Source: an uncultured Eubacteriales bacterium
Lineage (GTDB): Bacteria; Bacillota; Clostridia; Peptostreptococcales; Anaerovoracaceae
Reading direction: 5' to 3'
Length of the DNA stretch: 38,602 bases
Assembly: GCA_902795265.1 (NCBI GenBank)
Contig: CADBKM010000025.1
Coordinates: 1 to 38,602, forward strand
The position numbers and the translations under genes were made by a program. The notes beneath the pieces are model-generated. The model was not told the DNA's origin and searched no databases. It saw only the letters and a program-made list of their open reading frames with translations. Every line of letters begins with the position of its first letter. Within the stretch, counting starts at the first letter, position 1. Positions 2,756 through 37,406 of the stretch are shown here, piece after piece.

Positions 2756-3976
2756 ATGATCCAGGGAGTACACAATTATTCTGAGATAGGAAGGCTCAAA
2801 AAGGTGCTGCTTCACCGTATAGGTGTTGAAGTCGATGGTCTGGTACCTGACAACTTCGCGAGGCTCCTGTTTGACGACATCCCATATCTCAAGGTAGCAC
2901 AGCAGGAGCACGACCGCTTCGCCGACATTCTGAGGAATAACGGCGTTGAGGTCGTATATTATGTCGACGAGACGGCGAAGGCTATCAACAGTCCGGTTGT
3001 CAAGGACCGCTTTATTAGAGAGATGCTCGACGAAGTCAGCTTCTCATCACGCGGGGTGAAAGAAGCTGTTTATGCTTACCTCATCGGAATGCAGCCGCGC
3101 GATCTTATCGAAAAGGTGATCGCGGGCGTCAGAAAGAGCGATATAACCGAGTATACACCGAAGACACTCGCCGAAAAGATAGATGAGGCATATCCGTTCT
3201 ACATGGACCCTATGCCTAACATGTATTTCACGCGTGACCAGGGCGCATGCGTCGGAAACGGCATCACCATACATCATATGAGCACTGCCACCAGAAGGCG
3301 CGAGAGCCTGCTGCTCAAGTATATGTATGAGTACAACAGCGACTTTGCGCCTGCCGGAACCGAAAAATGGTTCGATTACAACGATCCGTACAGCCTTGAA
3401 GGCGGCGATATACTGGTGCTCAGCAAAGATATCGCAGCGGTGGGCCTTTCAGAAAGAACTACCGCCGCGGGCATAGAGACCTTCGCAAGAAACCTTCTGA
3501 CAGGCTCGGACTTCAAAAAGGTGCTGGTATTCAACATCCCTAAAAAGAGGGCGTTCATGCACCTCGATACAGTATTCACGATGGTCGATTACGATAAGTT
3601 CTCGATCCATCCTGAAATAGAAGGTCCTCTGCAGCTGTTCGAGCTGAGTCTCGGAGCTGGCGGAGAGATCAGCATGAAATCGATGACTGACGATCTGGCC
3701 TCAATACTGGCCTGCGAGCTCGGACTTCCGGCCGTAAAGCTGATACGATGCGGAGGCGATGACGCGATGGCTGCTCAGAGAGAGCAGTGGAACGACGGGT
3801 CGAACACCCTGTGCATAGCGCCGGGAAAGGTCATCACATACGAGAGAAACTATGTAACAAACGATCTGCTCGACAAAAGCGGCGTAGAAGTGCTGACAAT
3901 GCCGAGCTCAGAGCTTTCAAGGGGCAGAGGCGGCCCGCGATGCATGTCGTGCCCGGTCTTCAGAGAAGATCTGTAA
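2756..3976 (+). CDS. arcA: Arginine deiminase
   Basis: The enzyme hydrolyses L-arginine to citrulline and ammonia, the first step of the arginine deiminase route in the cytoplasm. The 406-residue length is normal. Guanidinium-superfamily landmarks are present: FTRDQG with the substrate Asp near 161, the SLEGGD segment, MHLDTVF with the catalytic His near 269, and C-terminal GGPRCMSCP with the nucleophilic Cys near 396. The gene begins 9 bases after the YolD-like gene, with GGAAG rather far upstream, so its start context is modest. The carbamoyltransferase follows 48 bases later. No arginine-repressor box was recognised. Confidence 0.96.
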   Translation: MIQGVHNYSEIGRLKKVLLHRIGVEVDGLVPDNFARLLFDDIPYLKVAQQEHDRFADILRNNGVEVVYYVDETAKAINSPVVKDRFIREMLDEVSFSSRGVKEAVYAYLIGMQPRDLIEKVIAGVRKSDITEYTPKTLAEKIDEAYPFYMDPMPNMYFTRDQGACVGNGITIHHMSTATRRRESLLLKYMYEYNSDFAPAGTEKWFDYNDPYSLEGGDILVLSKDIAAVGLSERTTAAGIETFARNLLTGSDFKKVLVFNIPKKRAFMHLDTVFTMVDYDKFSIHPEIEGPLQLFELSLGAGGEISMKSMTDDLASILACELGLPAVKLIRCGGDDAMAAQREQWNDGSNTLCIAPGKVITYERNYVTNDLLDKSGVEVLTMPSSELSRGRGGPRCMSCPVFREDL

Positions 3977-34279: not shown

Positions 34280-35002
34280 ATGAATCTGTCGGAATATGAT
34301 GGTAAGTATGTTCGCATTTGCGATATATATGGGGACACTTTTTCGGGCCGCGCATCATACGGATCTGCCGAATTCATTGAATGTGAATACGGCGGGGATG
34401 AAGACGGTATCTTCATTGAAGATGTCCTGATTTACAACTCTCAGATCAGAACGATCGAGGAGATCGTACCGCACGGAACGGCCGAGTTATGGACAGAACA
34501 TCTTGTGCTGAGAAGATACCGCCCGGATGACGCTGAACAGCTGCATCAGTATCTCGGATCAGACCCTGAGATGTATAAGTACTCCGGCTGGAATCCATAT
34601 GCGACTCCTGAAATGACGAAAGATACAGTGCAGCATTTTATTGAAAGCTATGACGATGAACATTCATACTCGTGGGTGATCGATGCGAATGGTGATGACG
34701 TTGTCGCAGGTACGATCGGAGCCTATGATTATGAGGATGATCAGATCGAGGTAGGGTTCAGCGTTTGTAAAGGCTGGCAGGGCCGCGGCTTTGCGACTGA
34801 GGCGCTAACGGCGGTTCTGAAGTATCTGACGGAGAACGAGGGTATCGCCTGTGTGACTGCCTGGTGTGCTGCGGATAATATCGGCTCGCGCAGAGTGCTT
34901 GAAAAAAGCGGAATGAAGCTGGTCCGGACGGAAAAGGACGGGCTCAGAGTCGGTGACAACGTATACGACAAGCTTATATATGAATACCGCAGACCGGCTT
35001 GA
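34280..35002 (+). CDS. GNAT acetyltransferase with N-terminal small beta domain
   Basis: This is a 240-residue two-domain protein. Residues ~1-60 (LSEYDGKYVRICDIYGDTFSGRA... IRTIEEI) look like a small beta-barrel, resembling an LSm/SH3-like fold seen at the front of some Firmicutes acetyltransferases; this is a visual judgement. Residues ~70-240 are a RimJ/RimL-type N-acetyltransferase with LVLRRYRPDDAEQL, the acetyl-CoA loop KGWQGRGFATEAL and VTAWCAADNIGSRRVLEKSGM. Substrates could be ribosomal protein N-termini, amino acids or antibiotics. AACGGGGG is the start context. The SGNH gene follows 39 bases later. Confidence 0.85.
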   Translation: MNLSEYDGKYVRICDIYGDTFSGRASYGSAEFIECEYGGDEDGIFIEDVLIYNSQIRTIEEIVPHGTAELWTEHLVLRRYRPDDAEQLHQYLGSDPEMYKYSGWNPYATPEMTKDTVQHFIESYDDEHSYSWVIDANGDDVVAGTIGAYDYEDDQIEVGFSVCKGWQGRGFATEALTAVLKYLTENEGIACVTAWCAADNIGSRRVLEKSGMKLVRTEKDGLRVGDNVYDKLIYEYRRPA

Positions 35003-35041
35003 GCATATGTCATACCCGACTGGGGACATAATGGGAGATCT

Positions 35042-35614
35042 ATGAAAATACTTTGCATTGGAGACTCGAATACGTACGGATTTGACCCGAGGTCATATAT
35101 CGGATCGCGGTATCCGGAAAATGTGCGATGGGCAGATCGGCTGACAGGCCATGAAGTGATCAACTGCGGGCTTAACGGAATGACTGTGCCGCGCAATCAC
35201 AACAGGGCAATCGGTCTCATAAAGAGCAATGAGCCTGACCTTGTTGTTGTGATGCTCGGGACCAACGATCTGACCGGCGGTCTGAGTGCGGAGCGGATCG
35301 CAGAACGTATGGGAGATTTTCTTGACTCGATCAGCAGCCTTGGGCGGCCTGTCCTTCTGATCGCTCCACCGGTCCTGCAGTATGGCGAGTGGGTGATGGA
35401 CGATGATATCATCGAAGAATCTCAGCAGCTTGGGGATGAATACCGGAAGCTGGCAGAAAGAAAGGGCTGCCTGTTTGACGATGCAGGCAAATGGGGCATA
35501 GACCTGACGTACGATGGAGTACATTTTTCACCTGAAGGACACACTGCTTTCGCGGAGCATATGAACAACCTATTCCGATCAAAACGGACAGACTGTGGAG
35601 GCGATGCTCACTAA
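35042..35614 (+). CDS. SGNH/GDSL hydrolase
   Basis: This is a 190-residue lipase/esterase-like hydrolase of the SGNH superfamily with no signal peptide. Block I has the nucleophile in CIGDSNTYG (Ser8), block II is the Gly in CGLNGMT, block III is VVMLGTNDL with the oxyanion Asn, and block V is DGVHFSPEGH with the catalytic Asp-X-X-His. It may deacetylate carbohydrates or cleave esters; the substrate is unknown. GGGAGATCT precedes the ATG. It is probably in an operon with the GNAT gene. Confidence 0.9.
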   Translation: MKILCIGDSNTYGFDPRSYIGSRYPENVRWADRLTGHEVINCGLNGMTVPRNHNRAIGLIKSNEPDLVVVMLGTNDLTGGLSAERIAERMGDFLDSISSLGRPVLLIAPPVLQYGEWVMDDDIIEESQQLGDEYRKLAERKGCLFDDAGKWGIDLTYDGVHFSPEGHTAFAEHMNNLFRSKRTDCGGDAH

Positions 35615-35708
35615 TCCGGGTGACCACACATTCAAAGTGGGAGACAAACTAAGGATAAAGTATCTTCCGGAACGGCCGGATTATCCTGTATGGGTAAAGT
35701 CCTACTAA
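35604..35708 (+). pseudogene. Short fragment resembling a protein C-terminus
   Basis: An ATG frame overlapping the end of the SGNH gene encodes about 34 residues including FKVGDKLRIKYLPERPDYP, reminiscent of the terminal segment of DUF3592-like membrane proteins (VGD-x-x-x-I/V-x-Y-x-P). There is no preceding membrane part. It is probably a gene remnant. The family link is uncertain. Confidence 0.3.
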
Positions 35709-35799
35709 CGCTTGCTTGACTTATACATACGGAAAATCATTGAATCATTTGCCAGTATACTTATGGTAAAATCTGGCGAAAACCTAATGAAAGAAATAT

Positions 35800-35839
35800 A
35801 AAAAGGCGCGAAGTCTCATTTCTGAGATCGCGCCTTTTT
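35800..35839. terminator. Terminator in the convergent intergenic region
   Basis: AAAAAGGCGCGA pairs with TCGCGCCTTTTT across a loop that itself contains TCTCATTTCTGAGA. A and T runs on the two sides allow termination in both directions. Confidence 0.85.
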
Positions 35840-35927
35840 AATACTTAATATATAGAGTTTTATTTGCAAGGGTTACGGACTCTCTTTGGTGGTTGATCAG
35901 CCGTGAGTCGCAGCCGCTCCCGGTGAT

Positions 35928-36355
35928 TTTATTACCTGCTATTTGGAAAAACCTTTTAGGTAATACAGCAAATATCTTTTGTATTGCTTAAGTATTATCG
36001 GTTGGCACAGAGGCAATACATATATTTCGATATCAATAGTTCTTGTATTGCCAGACGGTAGCAATTGCCGCCTGCAGGCAATACAACTAAGCGGTTCGAA
36101 TTCGGATCTGTATTGCCTCGGAATGAATCCTGAGTCTCGGGCAATACATCACTGTATTTTGAGGACGTGTCTGTATTGCCTGGGAATTAATCCTGAGCTT
36201 CGGGCAATACATCACTGTATTTTGAGGACGTGTCTGTATTGCCTAGAAATAAATACTGAGCCTCGGGCAATACATCACTGCATTTTGAGACCGGGTTTGT
36301 ATTGCCTTAGAACTAATCCTGTGTTTCAGGCAATACAATGGTTTGTTGTATTGCC
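35928..36355. repeat. Phased array of alternating inverted 9-mers (63-bp tandem units)
   Basis: TGTATTGCC and its complement GGCAATACA alternate strictly. TGTATTGCC-type sites start at 35980, 36044, 36109, 36172, 36235, 36298 and 36347 (the first is TGTATTGCT). GGCAATACA starts at 36012, 36077, 36140, 36203, 36266 and 36329. Degenerate members start at 35928 (TTTATTACC) and 35959 (GGTAATACA). Neighbouring sites are 31-33 bases apart, about three DNA turns; the spacings at the edges are 21 and 18. The last units repeat with a 63-base period including similar spacers (ATCACTG...GAGGACG). Repeats are too short, and spacers too alike, for CRISPR. Confidence 0.9.
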
Positions 36356-36376
36356 GTTGCCGTTTACAAAGCGCAA

Positions 36377-36407
36377 GAAAAAAGCGGACATCTTTCGATA
36401 TCCGCTT
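36377..36407 (-). terminator. Probable terminator for the Crp/Fnr gene
   Basis: On the minus strand AAGCGGATATC pairs with GATGTCCGCTT around a GAAA-type loop with one mismatch, followed by a T-rich run. It lies about 205 bases beyond the stop codon. Confidence 0.6.
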
Positions 36408-36421
36408 CGTTGGTGGATGAT

Positions 36422-36468
36422 AAGGTTCCCTACGAATCATACGGCGTTGCCGTAATGTAGGGAACCTT
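36422..36468. repeat. Nested perfect inverted repeat
   Basis: AAGGTTCCCTAC and GTAGGGAACCTT form a perfect 12-bp outer stem, and ACGGC/GCCGT an inner stem in the 23-base loop. There is no T-run, so it is not an obvious terminator. It may be a small mobile palindrome or a protein site. Confidence 0.6.
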
Positions 36469-36612
36469 GCGAAATACTCGACAAGTTCATATTTCGACAG
36501 GGGATCGAAGTCTGGTGCAGAGCCTGAAACCCAGTAAAGAGAGGAGGTTCAGCGACATCATCCCATCCATTCCTCAAGCTTTCCTCAAAACACCTTGCTT
36601 TTATTCTTTTTA

Positions 36613-37296
36613 TTACGACTCATAACCAGGCCTAGAAAAAGGCGATAAGAGGCTGAAATGTCTCTTTTTTGTTTTGATCAATCCGTCTTTCTGCATCTTT
36701 CCAAGCTCCTTGGATAAGGCGGTACGCTCTACATTCAGGTAATCTGCCAGCTGCTGCCGGTCGAATGGAATATCGAATTCATCTGAACTCTCCTGCAGCG
36801 ACACGCTGTTCAGATATGCCATTACTCTGCCACGGATACTCTTCGGCGAAGTGTGAAAGCTTCTGCCCGCCAGCATAAGGTTTTTGTGCATGAACACATC
36901 CAGTATGTTGGTGGCCAGCTTGAGTCTCCAAAGGGATGGATCCTGACTGTACATACCTAAAGATTCTATTCGGAGCATCAATACTCTGCATTTTTCGTTC
37001 GCAACTGCATCAACCAGCATGGGCTCATCTTTGGCCATAGCATATGTCTCTGCAAATACCTGCCCTTTTCCTACATGACTCAGAATAGTCCTGTTTCCCC
37101 ACATGTCATTACTTTCTATGCGAACACTGCCTTCAAGCACCAGGCCCATCATATCTGTTGTGCTCCCGGCATACAAAATGACTTCGTCTTTTAAGAATTC
37201 CTTCTCAGATGACTTAAGTGCAGATAAAGCCGTATCCAGCTCATTATCATTCATACCGCGGAATATAACAGTCTTTTTAAGTAAATCCTTATCCAT
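36613..37296 (-). CDS. Crp/Fnr family transcriptional regulator
   Basis: This 227-residue regulator has an N-terminal cyclic-nucleotide-binding-like barrel (KDEVILYAGSTTDMMGLVLEGSVRI) and a C-terminal winged helix (FDRQQLADYLNVERTALSKELGKMQKDGLI, near 177-206). The N-terminal Cys cluster of FNR is absent, so it is not an FNR-type 4Fe-4S oxygen sensor; the ligand is unknown. It is divergent from the ferredoxin-like gene, and a perfect 16-bp palindrome lies between them 25 bases from its start codon, suggesting autoregulation. The ribosome site is weak (AAGAG). Confidence 0.92.
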   Translation of the reverse strand: MDKDLLKKTVIFRGMNDNELDTALSALKSSEKEFLKDEVILYAGSTTDMMGLVLEGSVRIESNDMWGNRTILSHVGKGQVFAETYAMAKDEPMLVDAVANEKCRVLMLRIESLGMYSQDPSLWRLKLATNILDVFMHKNLMLAGRSFHTSPKSIRGRVMAYLNSVSLQESSDEFDIPFDRQQLADYLNVERTALSKELGKMQKDGLIKTKKRHFSLLSPFSRPGYES

Positions 37297-37320
37297 AAAA
37301 ACTCTTGCAATTTTTCAAAA

Positions 37321-37336
37321 TGTGGTTATAACCACA
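37321..37336. promoter_or_regulatory. Crp/Fnr-type operator in the divergent intergenic region
   Basis: TGTGGTTATAACCACA is a perfect 16-bp palindrome. Its centre (37328.5) is 41.5 bases before the start predicted from the TATACT at 37358-37363, the standard class II activator position for the ferredoxin-like gene. Confidence 0.75.
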
Positions 37337-37357
37337 TACTTACAATACATACTTTAC

Positions 37358-37363
37358 TATACT
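37358..37363 (+). promoter_or_regulatory. -10 element of the ferredoxin-like gene promoter
   Basis: TATACT, with no good -35 because that position abuts the palindromic operator. This suggests activator-dependent transcription starting near 37370, with a leader of about 37 nt. Confidence 0.55.
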
Positions 37364-37406
37364 GACATTGGATAAACAAGAGACAAGTAATACGGAGGAT
37401 ACTGCG

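Follow-up and report, generated by a model that had tools for sequence, protein, structure and literature searches.

What is a regular array of short inverted sequences doing between two convergent genes of a clostridial genome, and does it stand alone? The array lies in the window, by which we mean the whole stretch of 38,602 nucleotides that was analyzed. We give a probability of about 0.6 to the reading that it is a dispersed non-coding DNA element working with a nuclease of the PD-(D/E)XK type whose gene lies elsewhere in the genome, on contig C40. Below we describe the array and its relatives, the gene family found beside them and the other explanations that the same evidence has to be weighed against.

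Structure and setting of the array

A half-site scan found 15 half-sites in strictly alternating orientation at 35928-36355, TGTATTGCC on the plus strand and GGCAATACA on the minus strand, just as an initial sequence-only reading had described. Twelve of these are exact, those at 35959 and 35980 carry one mismatch and the one at 35928 carries two. The count of half-sites matching in at least 8 of 9 positions is therefore 14 and not the 13 first reported, and only the half-site at 35928, rather than two at the left edge, falls below that level. Eight further half-sites of at least 8/9 occur in the window outside the array. Successive half-sites are spaced by 31, 21, 32, 32, 33, 32, 31, 32, 31, 32, 31, 32, 31 and 18 bp. 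The near-constant spacing of 31-33 bp thus holds for 12 of the 14 spacings and breaks down at the edges, with 21 bp at the left and 18 bp at the right, where the terminal plus-strand half-site (36347..36355) is out of phase with the one preceding it.

The half-sites pair into hairpin units. The leftmost unit (35928..35967; TTTATTACC...GGTAATACA) is degenerate, and the half-site following it lies one helical turn closer than elsewhere, with a core gap of 16 instead of 27. An exact pattern search returned a 42-bp unit of TGTATTGCC-N24-GGCAATACA at 36044..36085 and 40-bp units at 36109..36148, 36172..36211, 36235..36274 and 36298..36337. The proposed tandem expansion of a 63-bp unit was recovered by Tandem Repeats Finder, which reported 3.7 copies at 36107-36337 with a score of 322.

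The flanking genes, named from their sequences, encode an SGNH-hydrolase-like protein (35042..35614, plus strand) and a Crp-like regulator (36613..37296, minus strand); they end at 35614 and 36613, in keeping with the convergent setting first proposed. Terminators had been placed on both sides of the array. On the minus strand a terminator scan flagged a hairpin with a T run at 36381..36408, while the similar hairpin and T run of the plus-strand gene, at about 35800..35839, was seen by eye and was not flagged by the scan. Homologs of the Crp-like gene are present in 25 of 47 genomes of the genus, and no TGTATTGCC array was found downstream of it in the nine relatives examined. A separate element 3' of the Crp-like gene, at about 36430-36640 of the window, is partly common to G046, G015, G011, G057 and G007 at the same place; what comes after it differs among those relatives.

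Related arrays and a neighboring gene family

The sequence-only reading had proposed searching the genome and its relatives for pairs of half-sites. In the draft genome of 1,950,639 bases the exact pattern TGTATTGCC-N20..26-GGCAATACA matched 17 times, and a reversed control pattern 0 times, so that the window array is not a product of chance. Six arrays were recognized in this genome (G000): the window array on C25, one shared by C5 and C40, and those on C15, C36, C48 and C58. The pieces on C5 and C40 are counted as one array since the starts of the two contigs overlap by about 95 bases, as judged by eye. A run of N interrupts the C48 array (L015, about 1521-1592) and the C5 and C40 contigs break inside theirs; the arrays are therefore not reliably assembled, and their unit numbers are minimum values.

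Using the relaxed pattern TATTRC-N-GYAATA-N-TATTRC on the 47 genus genomes, we detected arrays in three: G000, G002 (C41, C86 and C139, with the core drifting to TATTAC) and G044 (C3, C9, C27, C33 and C34). The remaining genus genomes yielded no arrays and one isolated forward match, in G014. A wider contig scan for the exact TGTATTGCC array returned ten stretches, of which four were taken to be the G044 genome itself; the other six were set aside as seemingly coding sequence or chance matches in other taxa. No such array was found in the viral contigs scanned. The genes flanking arrays of this family may be convergent, co-directional or divergent. A further dispersed hairpin, TGAGTCAG...CTGACTCA, was observed in L013 (about 2570-2610 and 3126-3158), L032 (about 455-495) and L218; it adjoins two TGTATTGCC arrays and lies near one distant relative of the nuclease described below.

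The arrays on C5/C40 in G000, C27 in G044 and C41 in G002 occupy the same orthologous place, between a PTS-IIC-like gene and the gene of a solitary 273-aa protein, which in G000 lies on C40. Of 30 PTS-IIC loci, 28 could be properly read, three with the array and 25 without it; the downstream stretch was misplaced in G047 and only 125 bases long in G052, and these two were left out. Among the 47 genomes, close orthologs of the 273-aa gene were found in G002 and G044 (at 76% and 67%), and the next best match was at 48%. Close orthologs are thus present in exactly the three genomes that carry arrays, an agreement expected once in 16,215 cases if random. Diverged members of the family are widespread, with at least one match in 43 of the 47 genomes and up to seven paralogs per genome. 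In the PTS-IIC tree the array-bearing genomes do not form one clade; three changes are needed, at least two of them forced by well-supported branches. The association does not, therefore, simply reflect shared recent ancestry, and loss or transfer has occurred.

Arrays beside other members of the family were sought with a motif-free detector, which requires exact 7-mers in alternating orientation at a constant period in chains of at least four half-sites. It was positive at 24 of 70 family loci of the genus and at 0 of 70 shuffled family loci. The controls were 88 loci of three other genes, on average shorter than the family loci, and 3 of them were positive. Two of the three positive controls are known TGTATTGCC arrays, and a Fisher test of 24/70 against 1/86 gives a p value of 5e-9. 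Two control loci that the detector passed over nevertheless lie near repeats, namely L097 (G002, a drifted array) and L116 (G008, ACTTCCGTC repeats). No array was found by the detector at 46 of the 70 genus family loci. At the 24 positive loci, arrays were found on both sides of the gene, at distances of 40-504 bp. The positives include the TGTATTGCC array itself (L188) and what is probably an unrelated TGAGTCAG hairpin repeat (L218). In other genera arrays were detected at 15 of 50 family loci, each extending about 1.5 kb to both sides of the gene, and the longest array has 20 half-sites.

The half-sites beside relatives of the nuclease mostly differ from TGTATTGCC and include ATTAGTTAG, TTGGTCCG, TATGGTTCCC, TTCACGC, GGTCACGGTT and GAGTGAC, along with TTATATGG, ACTTCCGTCC, ATTACTTAA and TACGAACA. 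Their similarity tracks protein identity (r 0.29 over 25 loci, equaled in 0 of 5000 permutations), with the consensus half-sites of L186 and L187 set by hand. We consider it very likely that the arrays have a partner nuclease. A purely passive origin, in which tandem repeats expand by slippage and are scattered by chance, would account for the tandem structure and for the similarity of units inside an array. It is hard to reconcile with the constancy of half-sites and gap lengths across arrays and species whose linkers differ, or with the concentration of arrays beside one gene family, and we regard it as the least probable of the explanations considered here.

A second family, ACTTCCGTC-N-GACGGAAGT, was detected in 14 of the 47 genus genomes, with 21 copies in G008 and 19 in G006. 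It consists mostly of 65-bp units and mostly occurs without its nuclease, for instance in G008, G006 and G049 (L323-L333). Of the 47 genomes, just G013 and G060 yielded the nuclease clade that adjoins ACTTCCGTC arrays, and no member of the nuclease family was found in G008 with its 21 hairpins. Like the 46 family loci at which the detector found no array, this speaks against a strict pairing of array and nuclease. The ACTTCCGTC arrays may persist after their nuclease is lost, move independently of it or depend on an enzyme that our searches missed.

Helical phasing of the arrays

The periods of 39 arrays cluster at 52-53, 62-65 and 73-76 bp, and in other genera also at 84-96 bp. A Rayleigh test gives R 0.763 at 10.5 bp, with a p value of 1.4e-10 that is optimistic because the arrays are not all independent; the best fit is at 10.55 bp, and none of 5000 random sets of periods fitted equally well. 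For the 22 genus arrays alone, R is 0.866 at 10.5 bp and slightly better, 0.904, at 11 bp. Distances within the TGTATTGCC family were read from 13 array pieces, leaving out G044 C34 and G002 C86. Because the TATTRC core served to select half-sites, its conservation is uninformative in this set. For neighboring units, 38 of 43 core-to-core gaps measure 27 and the others 26, 26, 37, 37 and 16; large jumps are thus rare and amount to +10 or -11 bp, which is one helical turn. Within a unit the gap stays at 23-26 throughout the 53 hairpins.

A chain of hairpins could also be transcribed and act as RNA. Folding of the plus strand of the window array is indeed far better than that of shuffled sequences (z -6.4), although good folding is expected of any inverted repeats. 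The 53 hairpins contain 430 Watson-Crick cells against 431.5 expected under within-array shuffling, which is to say no covariation, and no Rfam family matched window positions 34900-37400 at E <= 1. The spacing between hairpins is fixed and changes in jumps of 10-11 bp, which also argues against an RNA element, and we consider this explanation very improbable. With periods at multiples of 10.5 bp and no covariation, what has been conserved seems to be a helically phased stretch of DNA. A role at the DNA level, as originally suggested, is supported by the whole-turn spacing across unrelated arrays, the lack of covarying base pairs and the variety of gene settings. The arrays also lack the direct repeats and unique spacers of a CRISPR, since repeats alternate in orientation and the linkers within an array are related copies; the sequence-only reading had likewise seen no fit to CRISPR.

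What kind of protein would use such DNA? The sequence-only reading favored a platform for a nucleoid, partition or regulatory protein. If such a platform serves the host, the nuclease would be just a neighbor. Helical phasing and fixed linker length are what such a platform might require, and one TGTATTGCC array sits between genes read as recF and gyrB, where origins are often near. However, TGTATTGCC arrays occur in only three of the 47 genus genomes, close relatives have the same places without an array, and paralogous nucleases adjoin arrays with other half-sites. The evidence thus gives no specific backing to a platform for nucleoid, segregation or regulatory proteins, since arrays go with one nuclease-like gene, and we consider it unlikely.

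The nuclease-like protein and known systems

The 273-aa protein has no match at or above cut-off in Pfam or NCBIfam, and a PDB sequence search gave no meaningful match. An AlphaFold2 model has a mean pLDDT of 91 but a pTM of 0.56, so the domains are confidently predicted and their arrangement is not. The model consists of a helix (2-29), three strands and a second helix (69-100), followed by a nuclease-like domain, and shows a predicted PD-(D/E)XK-like nuclease domain behind an N-terminal coiled-coil/beta domain. Residues E168, D198, E214, G217 and Y224 are invariant in all 52 aligned members. The core fold of the predicted model and these invariant acidic residues are those expected of PD-(D/E)XK enzymes; by our own reading of the 52-member alignment, the usual catalytic lysine is absent from its usual place. 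Foldseek against viral structures returned ten matches at E <= 0.001, the best to a homing endonuclease and TnsA N-terminal nucleases and lower ones to Vsr-type nucleases, with weak TM scores of 0.24-0.34 over the full length for the top matches. Against the PDB there was no match at E <= 0.001, the best (1.4e-3) being Bax1, the nuclease partner of XPB.

In an order-wide survey scoring up to six candidates per genome, which makes copy numbers minimum values, 125 of 393 genomes in 38 of 158 genera had a match at E <= 1e-20; two of these genomes lie outside the family to which the window belongs. One possible function is defense or self-marking, with the nuclease attacking foreign DNA and chromosomal arrays docking, titrating or marking it. 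Residues 145-267 match the C-terminal nuclease domain of the PADLOC candidate PDC-S68 (E 8e-22), and the fast divergence of a family with up to seven paralogs per genome would fit such a role. The resemblance is confined to that end, however: PDC-S68 models are about 1,200 aa long, whereas the solitary 273-aa protein has its own N-terminal domain, and PADLOC gave no full-length match, only C-terminal matches to PDC-S68/S69 and weaker ones. No neighboring gene recurs across nuclease clades, the recurrent neighbors belonging to syntenic loci of one clade each. There is no phage link either, as phage records gave two weak matches to the nuclease domain only. Plasmid records likewise gave two weak matches, to the nuclease domain only, and no single PHROGs family was matched by more than 2 of the 52 members. 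We consider defense improbable, if slightly less so than the host platform.

We return to the nuclease as partner of the arrays. It probably binds its half-sites. The N-terminal coiled-coil/beta domain would do so along a single helix face, a nuclease dimer perhaps bridging neighboring inverted half-sites, and the C-terminal domain would cut DNA. Cutting followed by repair could then expand arrays in tandem and copy them to new intergenic sites, as in a REPIN/RAYT-like or homing-like pair that spreads itself and whose protein and half-site diverge jointly. We put a mainly selfish pair, spreading through cutting, at about even odds; neither a target-site duplication nor a clean empty site was found for any dispersed array.

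According to two papers (PMC2817692, PMC3116915), REP, BIME and REPIN elements are extragenic inverted half-sites that alternate, have less conserved spacers and occur in several copies per genome, and RAYT enzymes each lie beside their own repeat type, with apparent co-divergence of enzyme and repeat. As far as those descriptions go, the present arrays are alike in being extragenic and alternating, in spacers less conserved than half-sites, in having several copies per genome, in an enzyme beside its own repeat type and in the apparent co-divergence of the two. They differ in forming many ordered units at periods of 53, 63 or 74 bp where REPs are mostly singlets and doublets, and in occupying few loci where REPs have hundreds of copies. 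By definition (PMC2817692) the palindrome of a REP carries a GT(A/G)G tetranucleotide head; this head is absent from the TGTATTGCC half-site and its flanks. An inverted pair beside an enzyme gene, the other hallmark, is found at 24 of the 70 genus loci, by analogy only as the enzyme differs: RAYT (TnpA-REP) is a Y1 HUH transposase, whereas the enzyme here is predicted to be PD-(D/E)XK-like. A RAYT partner was also considered and rejected, as the array's own genome (about 86% complete) has no Y1 tyrosine transposase of the IS200/IS605-like kind; Y1_Tnp (PF01797) gave 0 matches there and, as a control, was matched in 5 of 14 genomes. The initial verdict that the array does not fit REP therefore stands for membership and not for architecture and partner logic, which are much like those of BIMEs and REPINs.

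The predicted fold and patchy presence in relatives also recall homing endonucleases of the Vsr/TnsA-like PD-(D/E)XK kind, from which the present system differs in having a repeat-array partner and no intron, intein or single insertion target that we could find. NIME/dRS3 of Neisseria, BOX and ERIC are likewise dispersed intergenic repeats with short inverted parts. They are not known to have a partner nuclease or helical phasing of alternating half-sites. The best reading, by analogy, is a REPIN/RAYT-like partnership with an unrelated nuclease in place of the HUH transposase, and such an enzyme-and-repeat pair appears to be new for bacteria. Our search of the open-access literature did not find a nuclease-partnered array, though one may already have been described. 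That solitary PD-(D/E)XK-type nucleases maintain and disseminate phased arrays of their own half-sites, as a new class of self-spreading DNA and an independent REPIN/RAYT-like or homing-like drive, we would put at even odds.

If so, partnerships of the REP/RAYT kind between enzyme and repeat have evolved more than once, and a set of intergenic arrays that had been puzzling in Clostridia of the gut and rumen would be accounted for. The family would offer many naturally diverged pairs of protein and half-site, from which a DNA-recognition code could be learned, and would make it testable whether selfish spread, defense or chromosome function sustains such pairs.

A further feature was observed at the nuclease genes themselves. 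Direct repeats of about 21 bp containing [AT]AGTGC precede the start by no more than 160 bases at 28 of 65 nuclease loci (e.g. L202, L203, L204 and L217) and 2 of 51 control genes. They form a tandem pair at 17 of the nuclease loci and at none of the controls, and are possibly a shared promoter or operator.
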